Assembly: GCF_022662535.1 (NCBI RefSeq)
Contig: NZ_JAKQYM010000004.1
Span: 186,001 to 250,000 of the forward strand
Direction: 5' to 3'
Origin: Polaribacter marinus
GTDB taxonomy: Bacteria > Bacteroidota > Bacteroidia > Flavobacteriales > Flavobacteriaceae
DNA: 64,000 nucleotides
The position numbers and the translations under genes are program-made. Position 1 is the first letter of the stretch; every line of letters begins with the position of its first letter. The notes beneath the pieces were generated by a model. The model was not told where the DNA came from, did not search any database, and was given only the letters and a program-made list of their open reading frames with translations. Shown in pieces: positions 1,719 to 59,562 of this stretch.

Positions 1719-1720
1719 TT

Positions 1721-2419: not shown

Positions 2420-2430
2420 CAAAATTAAAA

Positions 2431-3795: not shown

Positions 3796-3810
3796 CAAAA
3801 AATTAAGAAA

Positions 3811-3826
3811 TATGACAAATGTCATA
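3811..3826. promoter_or_regulatory. Perfect Crp/Fnr-type palindrome upstream of ccoS
   Basis: TATGACA and TGTCATA are perfect 7-bp inverted arms separated by AA. The core ATGAC-N4-GTCAT has the same geometry as FNR sites (TTGAT-N4-ATCAA). Its centre (3818.5) lies about 41 bases upstream of the start point predicted from the -7 box at 3848-3855, the class II activator position. Which regulator binds it is inference. Confidence 0.6.
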
Positions 3827-3847
3827 TTTTTTAAAAAGTAACAATCT

Positions 3848-3855
3848 TAATTTTG
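3848..3855 (+). promoter_or_regulatory. -7 box of the ccoS-ccoNOQPGH promoter
   Basis: TAATTTTG matches the Bacteroidota -7 consensus TAnnTTTG, 23 bases before the ccoS ATG at 3879. No -33 TTG is seen; the palindrome at 3811-3826 lies there instead, which fits an activator-dependent promoter. Confidence 0.55.
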
Positions 3856-3878
3856 AAGTATCAATTATCAGGCAAGAT

Positions 3879-4055
3879 ATGAGCGTAATATACCTTCTAC
3901 TAACTATTAGTATTATAGTAGCAATTTTATTTTTTATCGCATTTATTTATTCAGTAAAAACTGGACAATTCGACGATTCTTATACGCCATCAGTTCGTAT
4001 GTTGTTTGATGATGAATTAGTAAAAGAGAAACAAGAAAAATCAACTTTAGACTAA
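3879..4055 (+). CDS. ccoS: cbb3-type cytochrome oxidase assembly protein CcoS
   Basis: A 58-residue single-span membrane protein needed for cofactor insertion into cbb3 oxidase. The start MSVIYLLLTISI, one membrane helix, then GQFDDSYTPSVRML is the CcoS pattern. I chose the ATG at 3879. A longer reading from an ATG at 3819 adds 20 residues, but that ATG lies inside the regulatory palindrome and upstream of the -7 box, so it would not be transcribed. It is the first gene of the oxidase operon; ccoNO begins 11 bases downstream. Confidence 0.88.
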   Translation: MSVIYLLLTISIIVAILFFIAFIYSVKTGQFDDSYTPSVRMLFDDELVKEKQEKSTLD

Positions 4056-4065
4056 ATTTTATATT

Positions 4066-6261
4066 ATGGAAATGCAACAATTTTATTACGACAATAAAAT
4101 CGTTAAGAAGTTTATTTACGCTACCTTATTCTGGGGAATTGTAGGTTTCAGTGTAGGTTTGCTTCTTGCTTTTATGTTTTTATTCCCAAATCTTACAGAA
4201 GGAATTTCTTGGTTAAGTTTTGGACGTTTAAGACCATTACATACCAATGCAGTAATTTTTGCTTTTGTAGGAAATGCAATTTTTGCTGGTGTGTACTATT
4301 CTTTACAAAGACTTTTGAAAGCAAGAATGGCAAGTAATTTTTTAAGTAACTTCAACTTTTGGGGTTGGCAATTAATTATTGTTGCTGCAGCTATTACCTT
4401 ACCTTTAGGGTATTCCTCTTCTAAAGAATATGCAGAGCTTGAGTGGCCAATAGATGTTGCGATAGCTTTAGTTTGGGTTGCTTTTGGTGCCAATATGATT
4501 TGGACACTTTTACAAAGAAGACAACGTCATTTATATGTTGCAATTTGGTTTTATTTAGCCACTTTTGTAACGGTTGCCGTATTGCATATTTTTAATAGTT
4601 TAGCATTGCCAGTAACCTTTTTAAAGTCATATTCGGTTTATGCAGGTGTACAAGATGCCTTGGTACAATGGTGGTACGGACATAATGCTGTGGCATTTTT
4701 CTTAACAACACCTTTTTTAGGACTAATGTATTATTTCGTTCCAAAAGCAGCAAACAGACCTGTATATTCATACAGATTATCAATTGTTCACTTTTGGTCA
4801 TTAATCTTTATTTATATCTGGGCAGGACCTCACCATTTATTATATTCGGCACTTCCAGAATGGGCGCAAAATTTAGGAGTTGCATTTTCAGTAATGTTGC
4901 TTGCTCCTTCTTGGGGAGGAATGATAAATGGTTTATTAACTTTAAGAGGAGCTTGGGATAAAGTTAGAACAGATCCTGTTTTAAAATTCATGGTAGTTGC
5001 AATTACTGGTTACGGTATGGCAACTTTTGAAGGACCATTGTTATCGCTTAAAAATGTAAATGCAATTGCGCATTTTAGTGATTGGATTATTGCTCACGTA
5101 CACGTTGGAGCATTGGCTTGGAACGGTTTCTTAACTTTTGGGATGTTGTATTGGTTAATACCAAGAATGTTTAAAACAAAGTTATACTCAGTTGCATTAG
5201 CTAACGTGCACTTTTGGATTGGTACACTAGGAATTATAATGTATACCTTACCAATGTATGTAGCTGGTTTTGTGCAAGCTTCTATGTGGAAACAATTTAA
5301 TCCTGATGGATCTTTAACCTATGGGAACTTTTTAGAAACAGTAAACGAAATTATTCCAATGTATTGGATGCGTGCTATCGGAGGAAGTATGTATATTCTT
5401 GGAGCATTTGTAATGTTGTATAATGTTGTTAGAACAATAAGATCTGGTAGTGATGTTACAGATGAATTAGCAGAAGCTGCAGCTTTAACAAAAGTTCCAA
5501 AACACAGAACAAGAGGAGAAGGTTGGCACACTTGGTTAGAAAGAAAACCAATCAAGTTAACGATTTATGCAACGATTGCTATTTTAATTGGTGGTGCTGT
5601 ACAGATTATTCCAACAATATTAGTAAAATCAAACATTCCTACTATTAGTAGTGTGAAACCATATACACCATTAGAGTTACAAGGACGTGATATTTATATT
5701 AGAGAAGGATGTGTGGGGTGTCACTCTCAAATGATAAGACCTTTTAGAAGTGAAGTTGAACGCTATGGAGAATACTCTAAAGCTGGTGAATATGTATATG
5801 ATCATCCATTTTTATGGGGATCTAAACGTACAGGTCCAGATTTACATAGAGTTGGAGCTAAATACTCTGATAGCTGGCATTTAAATCATATGTACGACCC
5901 GCAAAGTACTTCTCCTGGTTCTATTATGCCATCTTATAAATGGTTGATAAATAATGAACTTGATAAATCGGATATAGAAAGCAAGATGAAAGTCATGGTT
6001 ACTTTAGGTGTTCCATATACCGAAGAAGAAATTGAAAATGCACAACAACACATGTTAGATCAAGGAACTAAAATTGAAGAAAATTTACATTCAGATCCAG
6101 ATTTTGCAAAAAATTACGAAGCGGATAAAAAATACGCTGAAGAAAATGGAGAAACTTTTATAGAAATGAAAAACAGAGAGATTGTAGCTGTGATTGCTTA
6201 TCTACAACGTTTGGGAACTGATATAAAAGTTAAAGAAGAACAAAAAATCAATAAAAAATAG
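4066..6261 (+). CDS. ccoNO: Fused cbb3 cytochrome c oxidase subunits I and II (CcoN-CcoO)
   Basis: High-affinity terminal oxidase core. Residues 1 to about 480 are the multi-helix heme-copper subunit CcoN, with histidine-bearing helices (HTNAVIF, WWYGHNAVAFF, GPHHLLYSA, AHVHVGALAWN). The remainder is CcoO, a membrane-anchored monoheme cytochrome c with CVGCH at 549-553 followed by SQMIRPF. CcoN and CcoO are usually separate in Proteobacteria; the 731-residue fusion is typical of Bacteroidota. The join is in frame with no sign of frameshift. It is followed after 5 bases by ccoQ. Confidence 0.96.
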   Translation: MEMQQFYYDNKIVKKFIYATLFWGIVGFSVGLLLAFMFLFPNLTEGISWLSFGRLRPLHTNAVIFAFVGNAIFAGVYYSLQRLLKARMASNFLSNFNFWGWQLIIVAAAITLPLGYSSSKEYAELEWPIDVAIALVWVAFGANMIWTLLQRRQRHLYVAIWFYLATFVTVAVLHIFNSLALPVTFLKSYSVYAGVQDALVQWWYGHNAVAFFLTTPFLGLMYYFVPKAANRPVYSYRLSIVHFWSLIFIYIWAGPHHLLYSALPEWAQNLGVAFSVMLLAPSWGGMINGLLTLRGAWDKVRTDPVLKFMVVAITGYGMATFEGPLLSLKNVNAIAHFSDWIIAHVHVGALAWNGFLTFGMLYWLIPRMFKTKLYSVALANVHFWIGTLGIIMYTLPMYVAGFVQASMWKQFNPDGSLTYGNFLETVNEIIPMYWMRAIGGSMYILGAFVMLYNVVRTIRSGSDVTDELAEAAALTKVPKHRTRGEGWHTWLERKPIKLTIYATIAILIGGAVQIIPTILVKSNIPTISSVKPYTPLELQGRDIYIREGCVGCHSQMIRPFRSEVERYGEYSKAGEYVYDHPFLWGSKRTGPDLHRVGAKYSDSWHLNHMYDPQSTSPGSIMPSYKWLINNELDKSDIESKMKVMVTLGVPYTEEEIENAQQHMLDQGTKIEENLHSDPDFAKNYEADKKYAEENGETFIEMKNREIVAVIAYLQRLGTDIKVKEEQKINKK

Positions 6262-6266
6262 AAACC

Positions 6267-6434
6267 ATGTTAAAATTTGTAAAAAATTATATGGTAAGTA
6301 TGACAGGTATAGAAATCTATCCCTTGATATCATTACTCATATTTTTCACTTTTTTTGTAGTCTTATTTTGGTGGGTTATTACGGCTAAAAAAGAATATAT
6401 TAATACGGTAAGTCATTTACCTTTAGACAATTAA
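6267..6434 (+). CDS. ccoQ: cbb3 oxidase small subunit CcoQ/FixQ
   Basis: A 55-residue ORF beginning ATG TTA AAA TTT and ending TTAGACAAT TAA. It encodes a short amphipathic start, one membrane helix rich in Leu, Phe and Trp (about residues 18-40), then a KKEY stop-transfer. Size, topology and position between ccoNO and ccoP identify CcoQ, which stabilises the CcoNO-CcoP interaction. It lies 5 bases after ccoNO and 12 before ccoP. Confidence 0.82.
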   Translation: MLKFVKNYMVSMTGIEIYPLISLLIFFTFFVVLFWWVITAKKEYINTVSHLPLDN

Positions 6435-6446
6435 ATCGAAAAAATC

Positions 6447-7310
6447 ATGAAAAAATATTTTCAATCTACGGTATATGTAATTTTTGTAATTGTTACTTTT
6501 TTAGCGCTTGCAAAGTCGTTTATGGTGTACGAAAACCCATTTAATATTTATGAAAACCCATTAGTTTGGATAGCACTAATTGGTTTTGTTTTAGTCGTTG
6601 TTTTAAAAGAGATGGTAAACGTCATCGCTATTAATAAAGCAAAAGAACTACAAAATGAAAAAGATGGAGTAGTGCCAGAAGCAGAGAATTTATGGCTGAA
6701 AAAACTATTACAATCTTGGACAAAATCGAAAGATATTGATAGTGAAGAAGAGATCATTTTAGATCATAATTACGATGGAATTAGAGAACTAGATAATACT
6801 TTACCACCATGGTGGGTGTATATGTTTTATGCAAGTATTGTTTTTGCTGTAGTGTATTTAGTAAGATTTGAAGTTTTGGATGGAGATAACCAAATTGTTG
6901 AATATGAAAAAGAAGTTGCACAAGCAAGAATGGAGATTAATAAGTATAAATCTACCGCTACAGATCTAATTACCGCAGAAAATGTAACGCTTCTTACTGA
7001 AGAAAAAGATCTTAAAAGAGGAAAAGCAGTATTTAATTTAAACTGTGCTTCTTGTCATATAGCTGATGGTGGTGGATCAATTGGTCCAAATCTAACAGAT
7101 GAATTCTGGATTCTTGGAGGTGGAATTAAAAATGTTTTTACCACTATTTCTAATGGAGGTAGAGATGGTAAAGGTATGATTGCTTGGAATAAAACTTTGA
7201 AAGGTGATGACATTGCTAAAGTAGCGAGTTATGTAATCTCTTTACAAGGAACTACTCCTGCTAATCCAAAAGCGCCACAAGGTGAAAAATGGGTTGAAAA
7301 AGAAAATTAA
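6447..7310 (+). CDS. ccoP: cbb3 oxidase subunit III CcoP (monoheme form)
   Basis: Membrane-bound c-type cytochrome that passes electrons to CcoNO. There is an N-terminal helix (about 5-25), a second (38-57), then LDHNYDGIRELDNTLPPWW, which is the CcoP N-terminal signature, a third helix (about 127-145), and a C-terminal cytochrome c domain. The only CXXCH is at 200-204 (CASCH), with a likely distal Met in GMIAW. Proteobacterial CcoP carries two hemes c, so this is a single-heme version, 287 residues long. Confidence 0.92.
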   Translation: MKKYFQSTVYVIFVIVTFLALAKSFMVYENPFNIYENPLVWIALIGFVLVVVLKEMVNVIAINKAKELQNEKDGVVPEAENLWLKKLLQSWTKSKDIDSEEEIILDHNYDGIRELDNTLPPWWVYMFYASIVFAVVYLVRFEVLDGDNQIVEYEKEVAQARMEINKYKSTATDLITAENVTLLTEEKDLKRGKAVFNLNCASCHIADGGGSIGPNLTDEFWILGGGIKNVFTTISNGGRDGKGMIAWNKTLKGDDIAKVASYVISLQGTTPANPKAPQGEKWVEKEN

Positions 7311-7345
7311 ACTAAAGAAGTAAAATAAAGTTATTTAATGTAGTT

Positions 7346-8767
7346 ATGGAAACTCCGGAAAACGAACAATTTAGAGATAGTATCGGTACAATTGATAAAT
7401 CGGGTAAACGTTCTTGGGTTTTTCCAAAAAAACCTAGTGGGATCTTTTATAAGTACAGGACATATGTAAGTTATTTTTTACTAATTTTTTTATTGTCTGC
7501 TCCTTTTATAAAAATTAATGGAAATCAGTTTTTACTGTTTAATATTTTAGAACGTAAATTTAATATTTTTGGGTTTCCTTTTTGGCCACAAGATTTTCAT
7601 TTATTAGTTATCTCAATGATAATTGGGGTTGTATTTGTAATATTATTTACCGTTGTTTTTGGGCGTATTTTTTGTGGGTGGATTTGCCCACAAACCATTT
7701 TTTTAGAAATGGTTTTTAGAAAAATAGAATATTGGATTGATGGTGATAGAGGAAAGCAAATTCGTTTAGATAAACAGCCTTGGAATGCTGAGAAAATTAG
7801 AAAAAGACTTTTAAAATGGTTTATTTTCTTTGTGATTTCTTTTATAATTGCCAATGTGTTTTTAGCGTATTTAATAGGCGGGGATGTAGTGATTAGTTAT
7901 GTTACAGGGAATCCATTTGACAATATTAATACTTTAATTTCATTAACAATTTTTACATGTGTTTTCTATTTTATATTTGCTTGGTTTAGAGAACAAGTAT
8001 GTATTATAGCTTGTCCCTACGGAAGACTACAAGGGGTTTTATTAGATAATAAAACCATTAATGTAGCTTATGATTATGTTCGTGGAGAAGGAAAGAAGGG
8101 GAGAGCTAAATTTAAGAAAAATGAAGACAGATCTTCTACAGGAAAAGGAGATTGTATAGATTGTAAACAATGTGTTGTGGTTTGTCCTACAAACATAGAT
8201 ATTAGAAATGGTACTCAATTAGAGTGTGTAAATTGTACCGCTTGTATTGATGAGTGTGATCATATGATGGAAAGTGTTGGCTTACCAAAAGGATTGATTA
8301 GGTATGCAAGTGAAGATAATATAGCCAAAAAAGAACCATTTAAATTTACCGCAAGAATTAAAGGATATACTGCAGTATTATTGATTTTAATTGGTATTTT
8401 AATAGGGATGTTGTTTCTAAGAAATGATGTTGAAGCTACTATTTTAAGACTACCAGGGCAACTATATCAACATAAAGAGAATAATATTATAAGTAATGTT
8501 TACACCTTTAAAGTGATCAATAAAACCACTAAAGATATTAAAGATGTAAACTATAAAATACTTTCTCATAAAGGAACCATTAAATTAGTATCGAACCATG
8601 ATTTTATGGTTCCTAAACAAGGTTTAGCTGAAGGAACATTATTTATAGAAATAAATTCTTCCGCTTTAGAGAAAGATAAAATTAAGCTAGAAATTGGTGT
8701 TTTTAGTGGTGATAAATTAATAGAGACAACCATAACCAACTTTTTAGGACCAAGAAGTTATAAATAA
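7346..8767 (+). CDS. ccoG: Cytochrome c oxidase accessory protein CcoG (RdxA/FixG)
   Basis: Polyferredoxin-like membrane protein associated with cbb3 assembly; homologues reduce copper. It has several membrane helices, C110-x3-C114 (FCGWIC), and two classical [4Fe-4S] sets at C270/273/276/280 and C294/297/300/304. A further helix (about 342-360) is followed by a C-terminal Ig-like domain (about 375-473). The 473 residues match the family. It lies 35 bases after ccoP and is followed by ccoH. Confidence 0.94.
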   Translation: METPENEQFRDSIGTIDKSGKRSWVFPKKPSGIFYKYRTYVSYFLLIFLLSAPFIKINGNQFLLFNILERKFNIFGFPFWPQDFHLLVISMIIGVVFVILFTVVFGRIFCGWICPQTIFLEMVFRKIEYWIDGDRGKQIRLDKQPWNAEKIRKRLLKWFIFFVISFIIANVFLAYLIGGDVVISYVTGNPFDNINTLISLTIFTCVFYFIFAWFREQVCIIACPYGRLQGVLLDNKTINVAYDYVRGEGKKGRAKFKKNEDRSSTGKGDCIDCKQCVVVCPTNIDIRNGTQLECVNCTACIDECDHMMESVGLPKGLIRYASEDNIAKKEPFKFTARIKGYTAVLLILIGILIGMLFLRNDVEATILRLPGQLYQHKENNIISNVYTFKVINKTTKDIKDVNYKILSHKGTIKLVSNHDFMVPKQGLAEGTLFIEINSSALEKDKIKLEIGVFSGDKLIETTITNFLGPRSYK

Positions 8768-28157: not shown

Positions 28158-28175
28158 AAATGCTTATTTAGAATA

Positions 28176-28207
28176 AAAAACCCGAACAATCTGTTCGGGT
28201 TTTTTTA
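28176..28207 (+). terminator. Bidirectional terminator between rluB and hmuY
   Basis: Stem ACCCGAACA/TGTTCGGGT with A-run upstream and T7 downstream; it serves convergent rluB and the HmuY gene. Confidence 0.9.
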
Positions 28208-28227: not shown

Positions 28228-29310
28228 TTATTGCAATAGACTATAAATAAACTTAGGATATCCACGAACACCATCTGCATTTGTAAGTGCTATAAATTGT
28301 AGTTTGTATAAATTACCATCAGTATCATTGATAATGTAAAAAACATTTTCTTTTAAAGAAGGTAAACTACCTGGACCTCCACCATTTCTCCAGCTACTTC
28401 CAATACTACGTTGGTCATCTGTAAAATTTGTAGCAGTAACATCTGCTAAGGTAAAAGTATCATAAGTAAAAGAATCTACATCTGTGTCTATCATATAAAC
28501 TTTAGCATCACCCTTAACATTATTAACAACAAAATCAGAGTATCCGTAAGAACCATATCCAGTAATTTCATTTGTAAAAACGGTAAAATTTAAATCCCAA
28601 TCTTTTTTTGCTGGTTCTACAATAACTTCATTTTCTGTTTTTAAGCTGAAGAAAGTATAATTATAGATTGCATTTTTAGAAATAATTACCTCCTTATGTG
28701 TTGTATCATCTAAATTGGCATATTGTAGTATATAATTATTTCCACTTCTTAAAATTCGTATTTTTTTCCATCCTCTCGAATCATCAGAAATATCTACACT
28801 TCCTGTGGCAGGAGTATCAGTTCCAATTTCATATCCTAAATTTAGTAAATACACATTATTATTAGCATCTGTACTAGAAATTTCGTCAATAGCTGTTTCT
28901 GTTATTGTCCCATAAGGAGAATCTACATAAGCAGTATTTGCAGCATCAAATGTACCAACAGCAACTTTAGGTTGTAGATCTTGTACTTCTGTAGAGCTAG
29001 AAGTAACAGCGTCAATATCTGTTGATGTCAATTTTCCTACAGCCATATATATAGCTCCATTTATTACAACTCTAAAATCTGAACCAGTATAAAAACCTAA
29101 TTCCCATGCGTCTCTTTGTGAAGAAATACTTGTGTTTGTACTTAAGTCTAAGTATACTTGGTTTGGTTGGTTTGGTCCACCAACTTCTGGAGAAACTTCT
29201 GCCCCATCTATTACAATTGTTATGGGCCCTGTTGGAGTATCGTCTTTATCGCAACTCGTAAATGAAAACACAGCTACGCATAAAATAAAAGTTAAAAATT
29301 TGTTTGTCAT
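28228..29310 (-). CDS. HmuY-family heme-binding lipoprotein
   Basis: A 360-residue surface or periplasmic lipoprotein with a lipobox (FSFTSC, C20). Two HmuY-type strand blocks, DAWELGFYTGSDFRVVING and KDWDLNFTVFTN...YSDFVVNN, are visible. HmuY hemophores take heme from host or environmental proteins and pass it to a TonB receptor. The protein contains a single histidine (in DTTHKE), so the bis-His ligation of Porphyromonas HmuY is not possible; Met in IYMAVG and VYMIDT are alternatives. It lies 11 bases after the receptor gene. Confidence 0.85.
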   Translation of the reverse strand: MTNKFLTFILCVAVFSFTSCDKDDTPTGPITIVIDGAEVSPEVGGPNQPNQVYLDLSTNTSISSQRDAWELGFYTGSDFRVVINGAIYMAVGKLTSTDIDAVTSSSTEVQDLQPKVAVGTFDAANTAYVDSPYGTITETAIDEISSTDANNNVYLLNLGYEIGTDTPATGSVDISDDSRGWKKIRILRSGNNYILQYANLDDTTHKEVIISKNAIYNYTFFSLKTENEVIVEPAKKDWDLNFTVFTNEITGYGSYGYSDFVVNNVKGDAKVYMIDTDVDSFTYDTFTLADVTATNFTDDQRSIGSSWRNGGGPGSLPSLKENVFYIINDTDGNLYKLQFIALTNADGVRGYPKFIYSLLQ

Positions 29311-29321
29311 GATTAATGAAT

Positions 29322-31445
29322 TTAAAAATTAAGGTTATATAATAGTTTTAAGTAATAAGAGCGTCCATAGCCCAATAGTAAAGAGTTGTTGTTAGAAGAA
29401 TGTGTTCCTCCTGAATTTACGCTACTAACATTTACATTAGTAACATCAAATAAATTTCTTCCGCCTAAAGTGGCTTGAATGTTATTGTTAAAGAAAGATT
29501 TTTTTATGGAAGCATCTAACCAATTATATGCACTTGTAGTTGATTTAGAAAAAATAGCATTTCCTTCTGTATCTACACCAGAGGCAGTATAGTTTTGTTG
29601 GCTTCCATTGTGTTTAAATAGCAAGCTGATTGCTGTTTGCCATTTTTTTATTTTGTAGTTTACACTAGTGTTTAGTTGAAAGGAGTACAGGAAATCATTT
29701 TCTGCATTTACTTCATTGTTTGCAATTCTAGAAACACCTTGTAAATTAGCACCTAAGTTAAAGGTCCAATTATCTTTTTTGATGCTATTTTCGGAAGTAA
29801 TTCCCCATAATTTATAAGCATCAATATTGATATACTGATATTGTAAGGGAGAAGCATTTACAATTGCTAAATCTATTTTATCTACTACATCTAAATAACT
29901 AAATTTGATTGTATTTAATAGTGAAGTATTATTAATATAGCTATATTTTTTTAAGTTGATGAATGCTGTAAATCCGTTTTCTGGGTTTAAATTTTCATTA
30001 CCTCTTACATCATGGTTTGAATCTACGAAGTAGTAATATAATTCCTCAAAATTGGGGGTTCTATAAGATGTACCAATATTTCCTCTTAACTCAAATCCGT
30101 TATTCATTAAATAACGCGCACTTAAAGAAGCTAATAATTTCGATTTAAATAAAGAGTTGTATTCGTACCTTATTCCTGGTCTTAATAGAAATGCTTCTGA
30201 AACTTTAAATTCTGATGAACCAAAAAAAGCATAATTTTCTTGGTTTTGTGTTTTATCTTTTTGTGTAACATCTCCAGATGCCTGTGTGTCAAAACCACTT
30301 ATTATTTTTGTTTCGTAACCTAATTGAAAGTTGAAAGAATTACTTTTTATAAGATTATTGATGCTTCCTTTAGAAAAGAAAACTTTACTTGATTGGTAAA
30401 TTTCATCTGTTTCATTACTTCTTTCTTTACTTAAAATATAGTAATTAAACTCGTTCAAGTATCGCTTTTGTTGTTGGTATGAGAGAGCAATATTATAATT
30501 TGCTCCAGAGTTTAAATTACCTATTAGATTTACATTATTTACAAATCTATTTGTTTTAAATATTTTATCGGTTGCCGAAGGATTACTTGTTTGTGATCCT
30601 GTATCTATATTAGCTCTTACAGATGAGTCTGAGTAGTTGATTAACTCATTAAAATATTCAAACTTATAAGAAAGTTTAAAGTTTTCTTTTTTATATTGTA
30701 ATAGCGCATTGGTGTTGTTTTGTGTTTTTGGTAACCAATCATAACCTCTTAATCCATCATTTTGGTAATGGTTTTGACCTTTTCTACCATTGTAAAATCC
30801 AGCGAATTGATTTCTATTAAAACCTATTCTAGCAAACCAATTTTTATTAATAGTATTTGCAATATTTGTAGCCTGTATGTGCCTTCCTTTATCAAACCAA
30901 TCATATTCATTACTTACGGTTTCTTCTTGTAGCGAAGTCTGAATTTTCCATTTTGTTTTAATTGAATTTTTTGTAATAATATTTATGACTCCAGATACAG
31001 CATTGGCACCATATTCTACTCCCATAGCACCTTCTACAATCTCAATACGCTCTACATTGTCTAAGTTTATTTGAGTTAAATCGATGTTATTTCCTAATCC
31101 GTTGTCGCTTACCAAAGGAATATTATCAACTAAAATATTGAAGTATTGAGAGTTTAAGCCAAAAAAAGAAATGGTTGATTTTCCTGTTTGAGAACTCGGA
31201 ATAACAGTTAAATTTAAATTGAAGTTTAATAAATCTGCTAAATTATTAGCAGCCTGATTTTCTATTTGTTCTCTTTTAATAACAATTACATTATGAACAG
31301 ATTTTTTTATTGATTTAGGATTGTATTGCCCAGTAATTACTACTTCTTCTAAAACAGTAGTTTTTGTTGTGTCTATTTTTTTTTGACTAAAAAGAGTAAT
31401 AGTGAAAAGTAAAAATACAGTTGCAATCTTTTTATTTAGAAACAT
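29322..31445 (-). CDS. TonB-dependent outer-membrane receptor (HmuR-like)
   Basis: A 707-residue receptor: signal peptide (MFLNKKIATVFLLFTITLFS), plug domain with LEEVVITGQYNPK, LADLLNFN, RIEIVEGAMGVEYGANAVSGVINI, then a 22-strand-type barrel ending in aromatic residues (LYNLNF). The segment SYRTPNFEELYYYF followed by NENLNPENG resembles the FRAP/NPNL region of heme receptors. Pairing with HmuY supports heme or heme-like substrate uptake, energised by TonB-ExbBD encoded elsewhere. Confidence 0.88.
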   Translation of the reverse strand: MFLNKKIATVFLLFTITLFSQKKIDTTKTTVLEEVVITGQYNPKSIKKSVHNVIVIKREQIENQAANNLADLLNFNLNLTVIPSSQTGKSTISFFGLNSQYFNILVDNIPLVSDNGLGNNIDLTQINLDNVERIEIVEGAMGVEYGANAVSGVINIITKNSIKTKWKIQTSLQEETVSNEYDWFDKGRHIQATNIANTINKNWFARIGFNRNQFAGFYNGRKGQNHYQNDGLRGYDWLPKTQNNTNALLQYKKENFKLSYKFEYFNELINYSDSSVRANIDTGSQTSNPSATDKIFKTNRFVNNVNLIGNLNSGANYNIALSYQQQKRYLNEFNYYILSKERSNETDEIYQSSKVFFSKGSINNLIKSNSFNFQLGYETKIISGFDTQASGDVTQKDKTQNQENYAFFGSSEFKVSEAFLLRPGIRYEYNSLFKSKLLASLSARYLMNNGFELRGNIGTSYRTPNFEELYYYFVDSNHDVRGNENLNPENGFTAFINLKKYSYINNTSLLNTIKFSYLDVVDKIDLAIVNASPLQYQYINIDAYKLWGITSENSIKKDNWTFNLGANLQGVSRIANNEVNAENDFLYSFQLNTSVNYKIKKWQTAISLLFKHNGSQQNYTASGVDTEGNAIFSKSTTSAYNWLDASIKKSFFNNNIQATLGGRNLFDVTNVNVSSVNSGGTHSSNNNSLLLGYGRSYYLKLLYNLNF

Positions 31446-31462
31446 TCTTAATAATTTTTTTG

Positions 31463-31470
31463 CAAATATA
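31463..31470 (-). promoter_or_regulatory. -7 box of the receptor-hmuY transcript
   Basis: Minus-strand TATATTTG, 17 bases before the receptor ATG at 31445. The dyad at 31474-31498 lies immediately upstream. Confidence 0.55.
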
Positions 31471-31473
31471 TTG

Positions 31474-31498
31474 TTTATTTTTAATCAGTCTAAATAAA
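31474..31498. promoter_or_regulatory. Candidate metal/heme operator between divergent promoters
   Basis: TTTATTTTTA-ATCAG-TCTAAATAAA: a dyad with 8 of 10 arm positions paired and outer 7-bp arms perfect (TTTATTT/AAATAAA). It fills the spacer between the two opposed -7 boxes, where one repressor could block both arms of the locus. Fur is a guess; no consensus was searched. Confidence 0.4.
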
Positions 31499-31503
31499 TT
31501 TTA

Positions 31504-31511
31504 TATTTTTG
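31504..31511 (+). promoter_or_regulatory. -7 box of the DUF6607-ankyrin-DUF2271-PepSY transcript
   Basis: TATTTTTG, 42 bases before the ATG at 31554. It overlaps an upstream in-frame TTG (31509) that is therefore rejected as a start. Confidence 0.5.
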
Positions 31512-31553
31512 TCAAAAATTATTTTAACCTATAAAAATCAAATAAATCGTAAA

Positions 31554-32459
31554 ATGAATAAATTATTATTAAGCAGTTTACTATTCGTAATTGCTATTTC
31601 AGTTAGTGCACAAAGCAAAAAAACAAAAGATCAAAATGCCATAAAAGAGATGTGTGGTTGTTTTGAGGTAACCTTCAACTTTGCAGAAACTTTTAATTAT
31701 AGTAAAGATTCTACATACAAACCTTCTAAAACAAAAGTGGATAAAGGTTTAGAATGGGCTGGATTAGTAGAAGATGGAAAAAACAAAATTTCAATTCAAC
31801 ATATTTTACAAGTTGGTAATCCTGCAAAACCAATAATTGTTAAACATTGGAGACAGGATTGGATGTATGAAAACACAAATTTTTACATATATAACGGAGA
31901 TAATAACTGGGCTTTTGAAAAGAAAGATAAGAAAGAAGTAAAAAAACAATGGACACAAAAAGTGTATCAAGTAGATGATAGTCCACGTTATGAAGGTTCA
32001 GGAACTTGGGTGCATGTTGATGGGAAAAGTTATTGGGAGAATACCACAACAGCTCCTTTACCTAGAAGAGAATACACCAAAAGAAGTGATTATAACATCA
32101 CTTTAAGAGGGAATAGACATGAAATTACCAGTTATGGTTGGGTACATGATCAGGATAATAGTAAGCTAATTCGTGAAAAAGGAAAAGAAGATGTGGTTTT
32201 AGCGAAAGAAAAAGGATACAATACCTATGTAAGGGTTGCTGATAGTAGATGTAAAGCGGCTTCAGATTGGTGGAAAGCAAACAATAATAAATGGAAATTG
32301 GTTAGAAATAAATGGGATGAGGTTTTTAATAGAAATACAAATTTAACACTTCAAACCAAAGTAAATAACAAACCACTTTACAAACACTTATTTTCTGATA
32401 AAGTTGTAGAAGAGAAAGAAATGAATGAAATAATTGAATCATTTGTAAAAAAGAAATAA
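31554..32459 (+). CDS. DUF6607 family exported protein
   Basis: A 301-residue protein with a signal peptide (MNKLLLSSLLFVIAISVSAQS). Family marks I recognise are KEMCGCFEVTFNFAETF, KHWRQDWMYEN and NDSPRYEG-type segments (here VDDSPRYEGSGTWVHV). CGC near the mature N-terminus and several Trp and His residues are notable, but no catalytic function is known to me. It is first in the right arm of the heme locus; its stop and the next ATG overlap by one base (TAATG). Confidence 0.78.
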   Translation: MNKLLLSSLLFVIAISVSAQSKKTKDQNAIKEMCGCFEVTFNFAETFNYSKDSTYKPSKTKVDKGLEWAGLVEDGKNKISIQHILQVGNPAKPIIVKHWRQDWMYENTNFYIYNGDNNWAFEKKDKKEVKKQWTQKVYQVDDSPRYEGSGTWVHVDGKSYWENTTTAPLPRREYTKRSDYNITLRGNRHEITSYGWVHDQDNSKLIREKGKEDVVLAKEKGYNTYVRVADSRCKAASDWWKANNNKWKLVRNKWDEVFNRNTNLTLQTKVNNKPLYKHLFSDKVVEEKEMNEIIESFVKKK

Positions 32460-33931
32460 TGAAAAATTCATATAAAGCAACAGTACTTTTTTTCTTAATA
32501 AGCATATCCGCTTTGGGTCAAAAATCAAATATTTTTCATCAGAGGAGTTTTTGGAAAACAAATCCAAGTATAGAAATTGTAAATCAAAAAATTGCAGAAG
32601 GAAACGATGTTTCTGCTTTTAATAATAATGCTTTCGATGGTGTGATGTATGCTATTTTAGAAAAAGTAGATAATAAAACCATCAAATACCTTTTAACTAA
32701 AAAAGGAAATGAAGTCAATAAATTAACACACGATGGAAGGACCTATATTTTTTGGGCTGCTTATAAAGATAATTTAGAAATAATGAAACACCTTATTTCT
32801 AAAGGTGCAAAAATAGATGTGGTTGATACGCATGGAAATACATTTATGAATTTTGCAGCCTCTTCAGGACAGTTAAATTTAGATTTGTACAAGTATAGTT
32901 TTAAGGTAGGGGCAAACATCACCAAAGAGAAAAATCATGATGGGGCAAATGCTTTATTATTGATTGCTTCACATTTAAAAGACTTTAAAATTGTAGAGTA
33001 TTTTATTTCTAAAGGAGCATCATTAAAAGATAAAGACAATGACGGAAATGGGCTTTTTGAATATGCAGCAAAAGGAGGAAATACACACTTCTTAAAAATC
33101 CTTTTAAATAAAGGGATTGATAAAGGGAAAAATGCTATGTTATTTGCAAGCCAAGGATCTCGAAATAAAAAAAACACATTAGAAACATATCAGTTTTTAG
33201 AAAAAAACGGAGTAAAATTAAATGTAGTTGACTCTAAAAATAGAAATCCACTTCATTTTATTGCTAGAAATAATAAAGAGATTAGGGTTTACAAATACTT
33301 TATTGATAAAGGTGTTGATGTAAACCTCCAAGATGAAGAAGGAAATTCTCCTTTTATAAATGCAGCAAGTAGTAGCACTTTAGAGGTAATCAAGTTTTTG
33401 TCTAAATATGTTAAGAATATTAACTTAAAAAATAAAAAAGGACTTACTGCTTTGACCAATGCTGTTCATAGAAATTCTGTAGATGTTGTTGAGTTTTTAT
33501 TAGAAAAAGGTGCAGATATTACTACTACAGATAAAGAGGGGAATACACTTTCATATTATTTAATTAATAATTTTAGTACAAAGAAACCAGAAGTATTTGA
33601 GAATAAACTAAAAGTGTTAGAAAAGAATGGACTTGTTGTAAATAAGCTTCAGAGTTCAGGAAATACCTTATTGCATATTGCAACTCAAAAAAACAATTTA
33701 GCATTATTAAAAAGATTAGCTTCTTTTAAAATTGATGTAAATACAAAGAATAAAAAAAATCTGTCGGCATTGCAAATTGCTGTAATGAAAGCAAAAGATG
33801 TTAAAATTATAAAGTATTTGCTAAGTATTGGTGCAGATAAAAGTGTAAAAACAGATTTTGAAGAATCTATTTTTGATTTGGCATCAGAAAATGAATTATT
33901 AAAAAAGCACAACATTAATTTTTTGAAATAA
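32459..33931 (+). CDS. Exported ankyrin-repeat protein
   Basis: A 490-residue protein that begins with a signal peptide (MKNSYKATVLFFLISISALG) and then carries roughly a dozen ankyrin repeats of about 33 residues. Examples are DGRTYIFWAAYKDNLEIMKHLISKGA, here spanning about 91-116, and similar units ending VEFLLEKGADI and KFLSKYV. Ankyrin repeats are protein-interaction modules and usually cytosolic; an exported one next to a receptor and reductase suggests a periplasmic scaffold, which is inference. Some repeats are degenerate. Confidence 0.85.
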   Translation: MKNSYKATVLFFLISISALGQKSNIFHQRSFWKTNPSIEIVNQKIAEGNDVSAFNNNAFDGVMYAILEKVDNKTIKYLLTKKGNEVNKLTHDGRTYIFWAAYKDNLEIMKHLISKGAKIDVVDTHGNTFMNFAASSGQLNLDLYKYSFKVGANITKEKNHDGANALLLIASHLKDFKIVEYFISKGASLKDKDNDGNGLFEYAAKGGNTHFLKILLNKGIDKGKNAMLFASQGSRNKKNTLETYQFLEKNGVKLNVVDSKNRNPLHFIARNNKEIRVYKYFIDKGVDVNLQDEEGNSPFINAASSSTLEVIKFLSKYVKNINLKNKKGLTALTNAVHRNSVDVVEFLLEKGADITTTDKEGNTLSYYLINNFSTKKPEVFENKLKVLEKNGLVVNKLQSSGNTLLHIATQKNNLALLKRLASFKIDVNTKNKKNLSALQIAVMKAKDVKIIKYLLSIGADKSVKTDFEESIFDLASENELLKKHNINFLK

Positions 33932-33940
33932 AATTTAAAA

Positions 33941-34435
33941 ATGAAAACAAACAAAAACTTACTAATTATCCCTTTATTTTTATTTACAATAGTGGCGTTA
34001 TTTAGTTTTAAAAAGTATAGCGAAAGTTCTGCTTACAAATGTATGATACAAATGAAAAATTATACAGGAGAAGGAGCTTATGTAGTAATTTCTTTGTTAA
34101 CCCCTAAAGGGGAATATGAGGAGACTTTGTATGTACAAGGTGATGATGATGAATGGTACTTTGATATTACAGAGTGGTGGAGTTTTCAAGGTAAAAAAAG
34201 AGCCGATATAGATGCTATTACCGGTGCAACAATTAGTGGTGGTCAACGTAGTATTAGTGTTATTAGAATTGATAATGACAAGTTAAATAAAGGATATAAA
34301 ATCCGTTTTGAAACCGCTGTAGAAGATCAAGAATATCATAAAGATGATGTAGAATTTGAGTTGACATCAGAAAACATAAAGTCTAAAATTGAAGGAAAAG
34401 GCTTTATCCGATATGTGAGAATGTTGCCACAATAA
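33941..34435 (+). CDS. DUF2271 protein with covalent-flavin-like motif
   Basis: A 164-residue protein with one N-terminal membrane or signal segment (about 8-24) and a periplasmic beta domain containing YVVISLLTPKGEYEETLYV and the DUF2271-type WWSFQGK region. Residues 91-97 read DAITGAT (T97 encoded at 34229-34231), the pattern at which ApbE attaches FMN in NqrC/RnfG-type domains. DUF2271 proteins are commonly next to PepSY proteins, as here, 10 bases upstream. No ApbE gene is in the window. Covalent flavinylation is inference. Confidence 0.78.
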   Translation: MKTNKNLLIIPLFLFTIVALFSFKKYSESSAYKCMIQMKNYTGEGAYVVISLLTPKGEYEETLYVQGDDDEWYFDITEWWSFQGKKRADIDAITGATISGGQRSISVIRIDNDKLNKGYKIRFETAVEDQEYHKDDVEFELTSENIKSKIEGKGFIRYVRMLPQ

Positions 34436-34445
34436 AAATTAAAAA

Positions 34446-36644
34446 ATGACAATTTCTATTTGGAGATATAGCCACTTAACCTTGGCTATATCTTCTGCTT
34501 TATTTATTATAATTGCTTCTGTTACGGGAATCATATTAGCTTTTGAGCCTATTTCTAATAAGCTAAATTCCTATGATGTTGTTCTTTTAAAAGATGTTTC
34601 TATTTCTGAAACGATTTCTGTTTTACAGCAAAAATATGATGAAGTAATCACTATAGAAGTTGATGAGAATGATTTTGTTTTGGCAAATGTTGTTTTAGAA
34701 AATGGTAAAAGTGAAACTTTTTATATCAACCCAAAAACAGGAGAAAAGGTTGGGGAAATTTTAGAAAAACAAGCGATTTTTGAATTCGCAACTACCTTGC
34801 ACCGTTCTTTATTTTTAAAATCTACAGGAAGATTTATTATAGGATTTGTTTCGTTTTTACTCTTTTTAATTGCTGTTACAGGAATTCTATTGATTGTAAA
34901 AAGACAAGGGGGTGTTTCTAAGTTTTTTTCTAAAATAATTAAAGAAGATTTAAACCAATATTACCATATTATTATAGGTAGATACGCTTTGATTCCTATT
35001 ATAATGATAACAATAACAGGAGTTTATTTGTCTTTAGAAAAATTTTCTTTATTGCCAAAAAATAAAAGTTTTCATCAAAGTATTGCACCTCTAAAAAATG
35101 CAAAAAAAATAAAAACTTCTGATTTTGAATTTTTTAAATCAACAAAACTAGAGGAGGTTAAAAAGATAGAATTTCCATTTTCTACAGATGAAGAAGATTA
35201 TTTCTTTGTAAAACTAGTTGATAAAGAAATGGCTGTTCATCAGTTAACGGGGCAAATAGTTAGTCAAAAAAAACAATCTTTAATTGCACTTGGTTCTTAT
35301 TATAGTTTGCTACTTCATACCGGAAAAGGATCTATTTTATGGTCAATGGTATTATTGCTAGCTTGTTTTGCTATTTTGTTTTTTATTTTTTCTGGTTTTT
35401 CTATGACTTTAAAAAGGAAGAAAACAACAACCCTTATTAAAAACAAGTTCAACAAAGATGCAGCAACATATATCATTCTTGTGGGCTCAGAAACGGGTAG
35501 CACATTTAATTTTGCTGTTGCATTTTATAATGCTTTGTTAACTGCAGGGAAAAGTGTTTTTCTGTCGGAATTAAATGAATATACCACTTATAAAAAAGCA
35601 CAAAATATTATCATTTTTACGGCAACTTATGGCGAAGGTGAGGCACCTGTAAATGCAAATAAATTTATTAGAAAAGTTAATAAAATAGATCAAAAAAGAG
35701 TTTTAAGTTTTTCTGTAGTTGGCTTTGGTTCAGTAGAGTATGAATATTTCTGTAAATATGCAATCTTAGTGCAATCTCATTTGCAAATTCAAGAAAAATT
35801 CAGGTCAGTTTTACCTATTTTTAAAATTAATAATCAATCTTTTTCTGATTTTAATAATTGGTTAAAAGAATGGAGTTCGTTTTATAAAATACCACTTAAA
35901 ATAAAAAAAGAAGCGTTTCAGTTTTCTGATGAAAAGAAACAAGAATTTACGGTTATATCTAAAACTGAAATCAATATAGATGATACATTTTTAGTTCAGT
36001 TAAAATCTAATAAAAAAATAAAATTCGAATCAGGTGATTTGCTTTCTATCACTCCTAAAAACGAAAACAGAAATCGTTTATACTCTATTGGGAAAATAGA
36101 TAAAACTATACTTTTAAGTATTAAAAAACACGAATTTGGAAGTTGTTCTAGTTATTTTAATAGCTTAGAGATAGGTGATAAAGTTGTAGCTAGTATCCAG
36201 AAGAATAAAGAATTTTATTTTCCTAAAAAAACGAAAGAAGTCATTTTAATTGCCAATGGTACAGGAATTGCACCTTTTTTAGGGATGATATATAAAAACA
36301 AAACTGCTAAAAAAATACATTTATTTTGGGGAGGAAGAACAAAAGAATCGTGTGGAATTTATAAGGAAAAGATCAAGGCTGCTTTAGAAGATCAATCTCT
36401 AACTTCATTTTATAGTAGTTTTTCTCAAGAACAAGAAGAGAAAATTTATATTCAGGATATCATATTAAATTACCCAAAGTTAATTTCTAGCGCTTTGGAA
36501 AGAGGAAGTTCTATTATGATTTGTGGCTCTTTAAATATGCAAAAAAGTGTCCTGAAAGTTTTGGAAGAAATTACTAAAAAACATCTAAAAACTTCTTTAA
36601 AAAAATTTGAAGAAAATCATCAAATTAAAACGGATTGTTATTAA
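34446..36644 (+). CDS. PepSY-flavodoxin-ferredoxin reductase fusion (transmembrane reductase)
   Basis: A 732-residue membrane flavoprotein. Residues 1 to about 320 form a PepSY-associated module with four helices (about 12-33, 130-151, 176-197, 296-318) and histidines next to them at H10, H119, H174 and H291, suited to two b hemes. A flavodoxin domain follows (GSETGST 347-353, TATYGEGEAP), then an FAD/NAD(P)-binding reductase half with RLYSIGK, ANGTGIAPFLG and FWGGRT. It should move electrons from NAD(P)H across the inner membrane to a periplasmic acceptor, plausibly iron or heme. Confidence 0.87.
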   Translation: MTISIWRYSHLTLAISSALFIIIASVTGIILAFEPISNKLNSYDVVLLKDVSISETISVLQQKYDEVITIEVDENDFVLANVVLENGKSETFYINPKTGEKVGEILEKQAIFEFATTLHRSLFLKSTGRFIIGFVSFLLFLIAVTGILLIVKRQGGVSKFFSKIIKEDLNQYYHIIIGRYALIPIIMITITGVYLSLEKFSLLPKNKSFHQSIAPLKNAKKIKTSDFEFFKSTKLEEVKKIEFPFSTDEEDYFFVKLVDKEMAVHQLTGQIVSQKKQSLIALGSYYSLLLHTGKGSILWSMVLLLACFAILFFIFSGFSMTLKRKKTTTLIKNKFNKDAATYIILVGSETGSTFNFAVAFYNALLTAGKSVFLSELNEYTTYKKAQNIIIFTATYGEGEAPVNANKFIRKVNKIDQKRVLSFSVVGFGSVEYEYFCKYAILVQSHLQIQEKFRSVLPIFKINNQSFSDFNNWLKEWSSFYKIPLKIKKEAFQFSDEKKQEFTVISKTEINIDDTFLVQLKSNKKIKFESGDLLSITPKNENRNRLYSIGKIDKTILLSIKKHEFGSCSSYFNSLEIGDKVVASIQKNKEFYFPKKTKEVILIANGTGIAPFLGMIYKNKTAKKIHLFWGGRTKESCGIYKEKIKAALEDQSLTSFYSSFSQEQEEKIYIQDIILNYPKLISSALERGSSIMICGSLNMQKSVLKVLEEITKKHLKTSLKKFEENHQIKTDCY

Positions 36645-36655
36645 AAAGGGAAAAA

Positions 36656-37009
36656 ATGTGTTATAAAACTAAAATTATCTCAAGAGTTAAGAGTGGTGAA
36701 TTGTCTGTTTGCAATGGCTGTAAAATATATAGCTTAACATTTAACAATGTGTTTTTTCAGTTTGAAGCAGATGAATTGAATCAGTTTAAACAATATATAT
36801 TAAATCTAGATATCGAATATTGGTTAGATCATTATTCTGTGACTACCCGAAAAAGAAAAATTCCTGTTCCAACATTTCATCAAAATTTGATTTTAATTTT
36901 TGATATTTATGAAATGGAAGAATTGAAAGTACTTTTAGGAATAAATGATAGTGTTAAGAAAGTAGTTTTATCGCCTCAAGATGTAGATTACACTTTAATC
37001 CTCAACTAA
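36656..37009 (+). CDS. DUF6686 family small protein
   Basis: A 117-residue cytosolic protein. I start at the ATG at 36656; an upstream TTG at 36635 would overlap the PepSY gene. The N-terminus has C2 and a C19-x2-C22 pair (SVCNGCKIY) that could bind metal, followed by FNNVFFQFEADELNQF. It matches the Flavobacteriia DUF6686 family as I recall it; function unknown. It ends the right arm of the heme locus, before a terminator. Confidence 0.68.
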   Translation: MCYKTKIISRVKSGELSVCNGCKIYSLTFNNVFFQFEADELNQFKQYILNLDIEYWLDHYSVTTRKRKIPVPTFHQNLILIFDIYEMEELKVLLGINDSVKKVVLSPQDVDYTLILN

Positions 37010-37102: not shown

Positions 37103-37105
37103 AAG

Positions 37106-37178
37106 TGGTACCTCCAGGAATCGAACCAGGGACACAAGGATTTTCAGTCCTTTGCTCTACCAACTGAGCTAAGGTACC
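37106..37178 (-). tRNA. tRNA-Phe (GAA anticodon)
   Basis: A 73-nt cloverleaf on the minus strand. The acceptor arms GGTACCT/AGGTACC pair perfectly, the D-arm reads AGCTCAGTTGGTAGAGC, the anticodon loop CTGAAAA gives GAA, and the T-arm contains GGTTCGATTCC. The discriminator is A. CCA is not encoded, as is common in this phylum. Confidence 0.96.
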
Positions 37179-37248: not shown

Positions 37249-37256
37249 TATTTTTG
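37249..37256 (+). promoter_or_regulatory. -7 box of coaX
   Basis: TATTTTTG, 21 bases before the ATG at 37278; it overlaps the in-frame TTG at 37254, excluding that start. Confidence 0.5.
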
Positions 37257-37277
37257 AATTTTTATAAATTTGGTAAA

Positions 37278-58562: not shown

Positions 58563-58599
58563 AATATAAATTTATTTGATTTTTTTTAACAAGAATAGT

Positions 58600-59562
58600 A
58601 TGAAGTTATTAGTGCAATTTTCAAGAATAATAGTAGGAGTCTTATTTATTTTTTCAGGCTTTGTAAAATTGGTCGATCCAATAGGTTCTCAATATAAATT
58701 TCAAGAATATTTCTCGGAAGGGGTTTTAAATATAGAATTTTTAATTCCGTATACGTTACCGTTTGCAATCTTGTTAATTGTTGCAGAAGTTGTTTTAGGA
58801 ATAGCTCTTTTAGTTGGATGGAAACCTAAATTAACAATTTTTAGTTTACTCATTTTAATAATTGTATTCTTATTTTTAACTTGGTATTCTGCATATTATA
58901 ATAAAGTTACAGATTGTGGTTGTTTTGGAGATGCAATTAAATTAACACCTTGGCAATCATTTTATAAAGATGTTTTACTAACACTTTTAATTTTGTTCTT
59001 AACATTTAGAATCAAAGATATTAAACCGATTTTTGCAGGGAAACTTCCAACGATTATAACCTATATTTCTATATTTAGTTCTTTATTGGTTACATATTAT
59101 GTCCTTGTGCATTTACCAATTATTGATTTTAGACCCTATGCAATTGGTAAAAATATATCCGAAGGAATGAAATATCCCGAAGATGGAAGTATTCCTCTAG
59201 TGCATGATTTTGTTTTAGAAGATTCTCAAAACGATTTGGCTCCAGAAATTTTAGCTAAAGAAAAAGTGATGTTGGTTATTGTTTATAATTTAGATAAGTC
59301 TGATGAAAACGGATTTTTTAAAATTACGGAAGTAGCTAATAAAGCAATTAAAAAAGGATATACCGTGTATGGTGTTTCGGCATCATTTGCAGACGAACTA
59401 ATTCTTGCGCAAAACAAATACAATTTACCTTTCGAGTTTCTTTTTTGTGATGAAACAACACTTAAAACAATAGTTAGAGCAAATCCTGGGGTTTTGATTT
59501 TAAATAAAGGAACCGTTGTTGATAAAAGGAATTGGGTAGATGTTGATGAAATAAAATTATAA
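58600..59562 (+). CDS. DoxX/BT_3928-type membrane protein
   Basis: A 320-residue protein. The N-terminal half has four helices and the DoxX-like SRIIVGVLFIFSGFVKL start, with a D-CGCFG cysteine motif (TDCGCFGDAIKLTPW) between helices 3 and 4; a fifth helix is near 155. The C-terminal half looks like a thioredoxin-fold domain without an obvious CxxC. The family is common in Bacteroidota; function unproven, perhaps redox-related. I start at the ATG at 58600; the upstream TTG adds eight residues. The stop overlaps the crcB ATG by one base. Confidence 0.8.
   Translation: MKLLVQFSRIIVGVLFIFSGFVKLVDPIGSQYKFQEYFSEGVLNIEFLIPYTLPFAILLIVAEVVLGIALLVGWKPKLTIFSLLILIIVFLFLTWYSAYYNKVTDCGCFGDAIKLTPWQSFYKDVLLTLLILFLTFRIKDIKPIFAGKLPTIITYISIFSSLLVTYYVLVHLPIIDFRPYAIGKNISEGMKYPEDGSIPLVHDFVLEDSQNDLAPEILAKEKVMLVIVYNLDKSDENGFFKITEVANKAIKKGYTVYGVSASFADELILAQNKYNLPFEFLFCDETTLKTIVRANPGVLILNKGTVVDKRNWVDVDEIKL

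Follow-up and report, generated by a model that had tools for sequence, protein, structure and literature searches.

A seven-gene locus of Polaribacter marinus that may couple RhuH/HmuY-type haem capture to a transmembrane flavin electron path

Introduction

How iron leaves haem is an open question in genomes without the classical enzymes, and a locus of Polaribacter marinus raises it anew: does it join haem capture to a supply of electrons? The locus occupies positions 28228-37009 of a 64-kb stretch of contig NZ_JAKQYM010000004.1 (positions 186,001 to 250,000, hereafter the window) and consists of seven genes in two divergent arms. The left arm, on the minus strand, encodes an HmuY-family lipoprotein and a TonB-dependent receptor. 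The right arm, on the plus strand, encodes a DUF6607 protein, an ankyrin-repeat protein, a DUF2271 protein, a fusion of PepSY_TM with a diflavin reductase, and a DUF6686 protein. A first interpretation made from the DNA letters (hereafter the sequence-only reading) had named these seven genes in two arms and proposed that they couple haem capture to a transmembrane flavin electron path. Our Pfam profile search of the window proteins, on which the family assignments below are based, found all seven at the same coordinates.

Here, we argue that this is, on balance, probably a Fur-controlled haem-iron locus, in which NADPH electrons, passed across the inner membrane to a flavinylated protein in the periplasm, would reduce the iron that a haemophore and a receptor deliver.

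Results

The first gene of the right arm (31554..32459, plus strand; 301 residues; Pfam DUF6607, 1.4e-96) starts at the ATG at 31554, the TTG at 31509 being only the mechanical start of the open reading frame. A PDB search with its product alone (phmmer) gave 8xjc_A with an E-value of 1.1e-86 over residues 7-300 of 302, and a profile of 18 DUF6607 proteins matched the same chain, described as 'haemophore', at 3.4e-117, the next best match being at 0.033. Entry 8XJC is RhuH, the haemophore of Riemerella anatipestifer, which binds haem with a Kd of 3.4e-11 M and takes it from haemoglobin; a conserved function has been reported for three of its homologues (PMC11967795). The iron ligand of RhuH is His96, and R143, Y144, R170, R183 and Q198 are modelled on the propionates (PMC11967795). 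With residue equivalence defined by a numbering offset of +3 from the alignment of the window protein with 8XJC, the equivalents of all six are identical in 81 of 81 proteins (the window and 80 relatives). We conclude that DUF6607 is, by homology, the RhuH orthologue, i.e. a haemophore. The label 'DUF6607' was not found in any of the literature searched, and our analysis ties this Pfam family to RhuH.

The sequence-only reading had cast DUF6607 as a scaffold. That role is ruled out by the RhuH match, and the haem-contact residues speak for the haemophore.

The left arm probably serves haem uptake. Its two genes encode a tandem HmuY-family surface lipoprotein (28228..29310, minus strand), with two HmuY stretches (PF14064, 2.9e-27), and a TonB-dependent receptor (29322..31445, minus strand; plug 1.3e-20, barrel 1.3e-17), which is probably a receptor for haem. 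The lipoprotein has a lipobox cysteine, Cys20, followed by acidic residues as judged by eye, and all 20 tandem HmuY rows, the window included, keep the cysteine. Against the TIGR01785 TonB-hemin family, the receptor matched over its full length with 89.9 bits, below the cut-off of 316.85. In three genomes of the order (loci L048-L050), orthologues of the receptor (37-38% identical) and of the tandem HmuY protein (42-46% identical) were found. In L048 they are followed by genes for a periplasmic binding protein, FecCD, an ABC ATPase, a methyltransferase, HemS/ChuX and ChaN (Pfam), and L049 and L050 share this layout with HemS at the corresponding place. That the receptor and HmuY orthologues sit in a HemS haem operon supports the haem capture that the sequence-only reading had assigned to this arm.

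Other searches on the left arm were negative. No clearly conserved His/Met pair that could serve as haem ligands was seen in the 20 tandem rows (H205 75%, M89 80%), and the window HmuY protein had no PDB match at E 1 (phmmer). For FRAP/NPNL-type haem-receptor motifs, the region 461-497 showed no more than moderate conservation among 74 receptor rows and was not used. With PF14064 as its sole Pfam match, the lipoprotein gave no sign of a XusB-type (DUF4374) identity.

The genes for the ankyrin protein, DUF2271 and the PepSY reductase (hereafter the trio) would form the electron path. The reductase (34446..36644, plus strand) combines PepSY_TM (PF03929, 2.9e-33) with Flavodoxin_1 (1.9e-13) and NAD_binding_1 (1.4e-10), while FAD_binding_6 reached only 0.0074, below the cut-off. 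It was modelled with AlphaFold2 from 47 sequences (pLDDT 85.9, pTM 0.59). The C-terminal half of the model (335-732) superposes on NADPH-cytochrome P450 reductase 3qe2_A with a Z-score of 28.6 (rmsd 7.9 over 382 residues), and the FAD/NADPH domain alone superposes on 3qfs with an rmsd of 1.8 over 235 residues. In the membrane half, His10, His119, His174 and His291 are present in 64 of 64 proteins, and residues 10-197 gave a weak profile match (E 2.7e-4) to FoxB (7abw), a reductase with two haem sites. FoxB was not among the rows listed by Foldseek or VIA-align, whose lists were filled by matches to the reductase half.

The DUF2271 gene (33941..34435, plus strand; PF10029, 3.1e-40) lies 10 bases upstream of the reductase gene, i.e. 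PepSY_TM is clustered with a predicted flavinylation substrate. Its product has TGAT at residues 94-97, a predicted ApbE site of the type [ST]GA[ST], at which flavinylation has been demonstrated in a DUF2271 protein of another species (PMC8238504). The site is canonical in 50 of 69 sequences, the window included, and its last threonine is present in all 69. By sequence, DUF2271 had no convincing relative in the PDB (best E 0.2). No ApbE is encoded in the 64-kb window; a profile search found two in the genome (G000, 99.86% complete), of which one is 52-59% identical to nine trio-linked ApbEs and the other 22-26%. Taken together, the domains, the four histidines, the TGAT site, the diflavin fold and the published DUF2271/PepSY systems (PMC8238504) support the transmembrane flavin path first proposed from the sequence, with a predicted NADPH-FAD-FMN-bis-haem-flavin order that would make the right arm a known kind of flavinylation-based system.

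The ankyrin-repeat protein (32459..33931, plus strand; 490 residues; Ank_2, 1.8e-56) has a signal-like N-terminus as judged by eye. We collected it from 19 genomes (16 of 395 genomes of the class and three more from the sample of the order described below). Its gene is directly upstream of DUF2271 in all 19, so that the exported ankyrin protein and DUF2271 are neighbours in every carrier genome. The order of the trio is likewise constant in 19 of 19, with a methyltransferase gene inserted once, in a genome of the window's genus (G072), between DUF2271 and the PepSY reductase (L047:9592-10278); we note that a methyltransferase also occurs in the HemS operon of L048.

The last gene (36656..37009, plus strand, from the ATG at 36656; Pfam DUF6686, 2.8e-41) encodes a small CxxC protein that appears to be an optional member. 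The CxxC is invariant in 19 of 19 rows, and the gene adjoins DUF6607 also where the trio is missing (L030, L110). The best Foldseek match of an AlphaFold2 model (pLDDT 77.5) was a functionally uncharacterised protein at an E-value of 0.07, and none reached 0.001; no function was assigned.

The right-arm genes are tightly spaced, as the sequence-only reading had stated: DUF6607 and the ankyrin gene overlap by one base (TAATG), and the following gaps are 9, 10 and 11 bases. Such spacing is operon-like, and these genes are presumably co-transcribed. Between the receptor start codon (31445) and the DUF6607 ATG (31554) are 108 bases. Using a -7-like motif of the Bacteroidota type, we found TATTTTTG (31504..31511, plus strand) in front of the right arm and TATATTTG (31463..31470, minus strand) in front of the receptor arm, in agreement with the back-to-back promoters proposed earlier. 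To look at these signals in relatives, we used 64 divergent intergenic regions including the window, each of the others extended by some 30 bases into either gene; for the receptor-arm element, CAAATATA is on the plus strand in 62 of the 64. No convincing -33 element was seen in the 108 bases, and a sigma-70 promoter scan of the window was uninformative (46 matches against 53.9 expected).

The same 108 bases and their borders hold two Fur-box-like sites, scored against the R. anatipestifer consensus (PMC5609570). Site 1 (31434..31452, plus strand) agrees at 16 of 19 positions and overlaps the start codon and first codons of the receptor gene; site 2 (31477..31495, minus strand) agrees at 15 of 19. 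Counted once per strand, site 1 is the sole place with at most 3 mismatches in 64 kb, where 0.67 matches are expected on average by chance and at least two are found in 16 of 100 shuffles. A score of 15/19 is also found at three further places (33696, 37251 and 53195). A loosened pattern had 17 matches in the window against 11.6 expected, as many being found in 11 of 100 shuffles, which alone is no evidence. As chance matches of similar score occur in the window and in shuffles, one Fur-box-like site alone is weak evidence. Recurrence among relatives is stronger evidence: a site of at least 15/19 is found in 59 of 61 divergent regions (three of the 64 were too short) against 4.7% of shuffled copies, although the regions come from related loci and cannot be counted as independent, and site 1 is partly coding. 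These sites suggest that the window locus is under the control of Fur.

One of the three further places, 37251-37269, coincides with the beginning of the gene that follows (37254) and may be a chance match.

Is the gene set itself conserved? A scan of a collection of genome contigs for DUF6607 found at least 583 places. We kept the 80 most similar of these, a choice that favours Flavobacteriaceae near the window; neighbourhoods extended over about 10 kb, less in some loci, and hits below 25 bits were dropped. A TonB receptor was found in 75 of these 80 loci, HmuY in 72, the ankyrin gene in 66, and DUF2271 and the PepSY-flavin reductase in 68 each. The full trio is present in 65, the receptor together with HmuY in 72, everything in 61, and DUF6686 in 18. 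Since the same set recurs in relatives, the gene set is not due to chance, and the complete set in 61 of 80 supports the coupling of the two arms that the sequence-only reading had put forward. ApbE, HemS and FecCD were not found in any of the 80, with profile hidden Markov models (HMMs) built from 3-4 sequences each.

The receptor beside HmuY lies upstream and divergent in 63 of the 80 loci, upstream but co-oriented in 5 and downstream in 4; the other 8 lack it. On a quick, single-gene DUF6607 tree, at least seven moves of the receptor arm are required among the 72 loci having it, or twelve if absence is counted as a state. Partners kept through several rearrangements are stronger evidence for a coupling than an inherited gene order. 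Horizontal transfer of whole loci could mimic such retention.

What could happen to the haem once it is captured? Searches of the window genome for HemS, haem oxygenase (PF01126) and CobN/HmuS (PF02514) gave no match, and FeoB_C gave two; other haem-degrading families, such as the HugZ/HutZ, IsdG and radical-SAM types, were not searched. None of the three families was found in 6 of 10 trio genomes and in 13 of 18 DUF6607 genomes of a sample of 119 genomes of the order, which was identical in each search; three of the 13 are drafts (G066, G091 and G107; 95, 66 and 68% complete). CobN/HmuS occurs in one of the 119 (G072). We found no complementary distribution of HemS and the trio in this sample (1 shared genome against 1.3 expected, p 1.0), no avoidance of HemS by DUF6607 (1 against 2.4, p 0.46), and no avoidance of haem oxygenase (DUF6607, 4 against 3.0; trio, 3 against 1.7). 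For this reason, only the window genome's own lack of the three families is used below.

The flanks of the locus hold a symmetrical terminator-like hairpin (28175-28205, listed on the plus strand) where the left arm and the gene converging on it meet, and a tRNA-Phe gene (37105-37178, minus strand) downstream of the right arm. Farther away, positions 60-8767 of the window contain a cbb3 oxidase-like cluster with a P-type ATPase, a COX1-FixO (CcoN-CcoO) fusion and a FixG-type ferredoxin protein.

Discussion

How could the two arms work together? DUF6607, as a RhuH-type haemophore, would pull haem from haemoproteins outside the cell, and the HmuY-type lipoprotein and the TonB receptor would move it into the periplasm. 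In the cytosolic diflavin-reductase half, electrons would pass from NADPH to FAD and FMN; they would then cross the inner membrane via two b-haems of the PepSY half and end on the flavin of DUF2271, attached by an ApbE encoded elsewhere in the genome. This flavin, which the exported ankyrin protein may help to dock, would reduce either the delivered haem at its iron or Fe3+ released from that haem, and the resulting Fe2+ would enter by FeoB. The function of RhuH, the Fur control of rhuH, the flavinylation of a DUF2271 protein and the haems of FoxB are established by experiment elsewhere; at the window locus, the proposal is built on homology, conserved cofactor residues, conserved linkage and Fur-box-like sites, from which we infer the electron acceptor, the role of the ankyrin protein and the FeoB step.

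HmuS of Bacteroides releases Fe(II) from haem at the expense of NADH, and its authors propose import by FeoB (PMC12583661). Because the window genome lacks the three families, has two FeoB_C matches and finds a precedent in HmuS, reductive release of haem iron via the PepSY chain is left here as an open reading, not a result. Conceivably, haem brought in by RhuH, HmuY and the receptor gives up its iron before reaching the cytosol, with no need for haem oxygenase, HemS or HmuS: the DUF2271 flavin, supplied with NADPH electrons via the PepSY cytochrome, would reduce the haem in the periplasm, the ankyrin protein would join the haem carrier to the flavin, and Fe2+ would pass to FeoB, although we hold this fuller scheme to be unlikely.

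Parts of the locus resemble known systems. In R. anatipestifer, a haemophore of the same family, with its conserved histidine ligand, is encoded divergently from a TonB receptor and an outer-membrane haem-binding protein, the rhuH and rhuR-rhuA genes being separated by a 122-bp promoter region with a Fur box, and rhuH is induced by iron limitation and by deletion of fur (PMC11967795). The window shows this divergent arrangement too. The R. anatipestifer locus is described with rhuH, rhuR and rhuA only, and we liken RhuR and RhuA to the window proteins by layout, not by sequence identity. The PepSY-like flavinylation systems share with the window PepSY_TM with an NAD-binding domain, the DUF2271 TGAT site and an association with iron and TonB genes, 231 such clusters with a TonB receptor being reported (PMC8238504). 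The window differs from them by an added ankyrin protein, haemophore and HmuY, and by having neither apbE nor DUF4198 at the locus; neither ankyrin nor HmuY is named in the main text of that paper. HmuYRSTUV likewise has HmuY with a TonB receptor, NADH-dependent release of Fe(II) and, in its authors' scheme, FeoB import (PMC12583661), whereas the window genome has no CobN/HmuS match and electrons would come via PepSY and DUF2271. XusABC and HiuABC/FoxB (PMC13142918, PMC13001220) combine a TonB receptor and, in Xus, a surface lipoprotein with a PepSY inner-membrane protein; in the window, HmuY and RhuH take the place of XusB, and the diflavin reductase domain, DUF2271 and the ankyrin protein are extra. 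Unlike the window, hfpR-hfpY of Flavobacterium psychrophilum has a DoxX-family gene between hfpR and hfpY (PMC9331221); a MauE/DoxX-type membrane protein is encoded at window positions 58576-59562.

That the haem and electron modules act on the same iron has to be weighed against the possibility that they are two neighbours of one regulon, the right arm being a general ferric or ferri-siderophore reductase that never touches haem-derived iron. Several observations tell against a joint function. DUF2271 has a non-canonical site in 19 of 69 sequences, 16 with Glu for Ala (TGET 8, VGET 5, SGET 3) and 3 with TGST, so that flavinylation may be lost in some. Even among the closest 80 loci, the trio is incomplete in 15, and 8 have no receptor beside HmuY. 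R. anatipestifer is reported to use haem through rhuH, and the main text of that report names no PepSY, ankyrin or reductase (PMC11967795). In the order sample, DUF6607 is found in 18 genomes and the trio in 10 (an eleventh has only a partial reductase match), and only two of these 18 have them linked, the window's genome and G074; in G074, DUF6607-HmuY-receptor-HmuY-ankyrin-DUF2271-PepSY run on one strand. G072, of the window's own genus, holds DUF6607 and the trio apart. Around the trio in the 19 genomes (mostly 20 kb fetched, counts including the window), DUF6607 is found in 4, HmuY in only 2, a TonB receptor in 8 and ApbE in 9; 11 of the 19 have no nearby TonB receptor by our custom HMM, which SusC-type receptors can escape. 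Four copies of the trio are accompanied by a TonB receptor and, between the two, an unrelated lipoprotein of about 430 residues instead of HmuY (L040:5636-6910, L041:11970-13253, L136:7474-8853 and L137:7732-9042). Two members of this lipoprotein scanned had no Pfam match, and the alignment of the four sequences had no PDB relative (best E 0.95); it may bind a siderophore or iron, occupying the position that HmuY has in the window. Since the trio occurs with other receptors and lipoproteins or with no receptor, it is not specific to haem. The Caulobacter PepSY-DUF2271-DUF4198-ApbE cluster, which is Fur-regulated and matters under stress by EDTA, has no haem uptake gene named in the available part of its description, and the PepSY reductases HiuB and FoxB serve siderophores, all of which is consistent with a general reductase.

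On the other side, the two modules stay together in most of the closest loci through the changes in receptor-arm place described above, and the three known haem-iron release families have no match in the window genome. DUF6607 and the trio also occur together in 8 of the 119 genomes against 1.5 expected (Fisher 2e-6, uncorrected for kinship), and within the window's family in 5 of 15 (p 0.04). The expectation that the right-arm genes keep company with a receptor therefore held only in part: farther out, 11 of 19 trio genomes are without a TonB receptor and 16 of 18 DUF6607 genomes are unlinked, but 61 of the 80 closest loci are complete. Since the modules separate farther out, we take the trio to be a general module that has been joined to haem capture in the window's lineage, and consider a right arm indifferent to haem iron somewhat unlikely there. 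A further possibility is that the electrons are for protein redox chemistry, such as thiol or methionine-sulfoxide repair or keeping periplasmic haem reduced for safe handling, and not for iron release. A common core fold unites PepSY with MsrQ and further flavinylation-linked membrane cytochromes, and a Bordetella PepSY_TM protein is reported to support haem-copper oxidases; however, no methionine sulfoxide reductase or thioredoxin-like domain was found in the seven proteins (Pfam), and the linkage is to haem and iron receptors, which makes such a role highly improbable.

Our preferred reading therefore remains a haem-iron locus in which the two arms are coupled. The parts are of known kinds. 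HmuY and PepSY are named together in PMC10434189 and PMC12106395; of the papers pairing PepSY, ankyrin and DUF2271, none among the matches listed is, by title, about such a locus; and we found no description of a haem-capture module paired with a transmembrane electron module in the literature searched. This suggests that the pairing of RhuH/HmuY haem capture with a PepSY-DUF2271 electron module is new within that literature. With a recently described haemophore and a transmembrane electron module in one locus, conserved in close relatives, reductive release of haem iron becomes directly testable. If it takes place, such a periplasmic reductive pathway would stand as a Flavobacteriaceae counterpart of HmuS.

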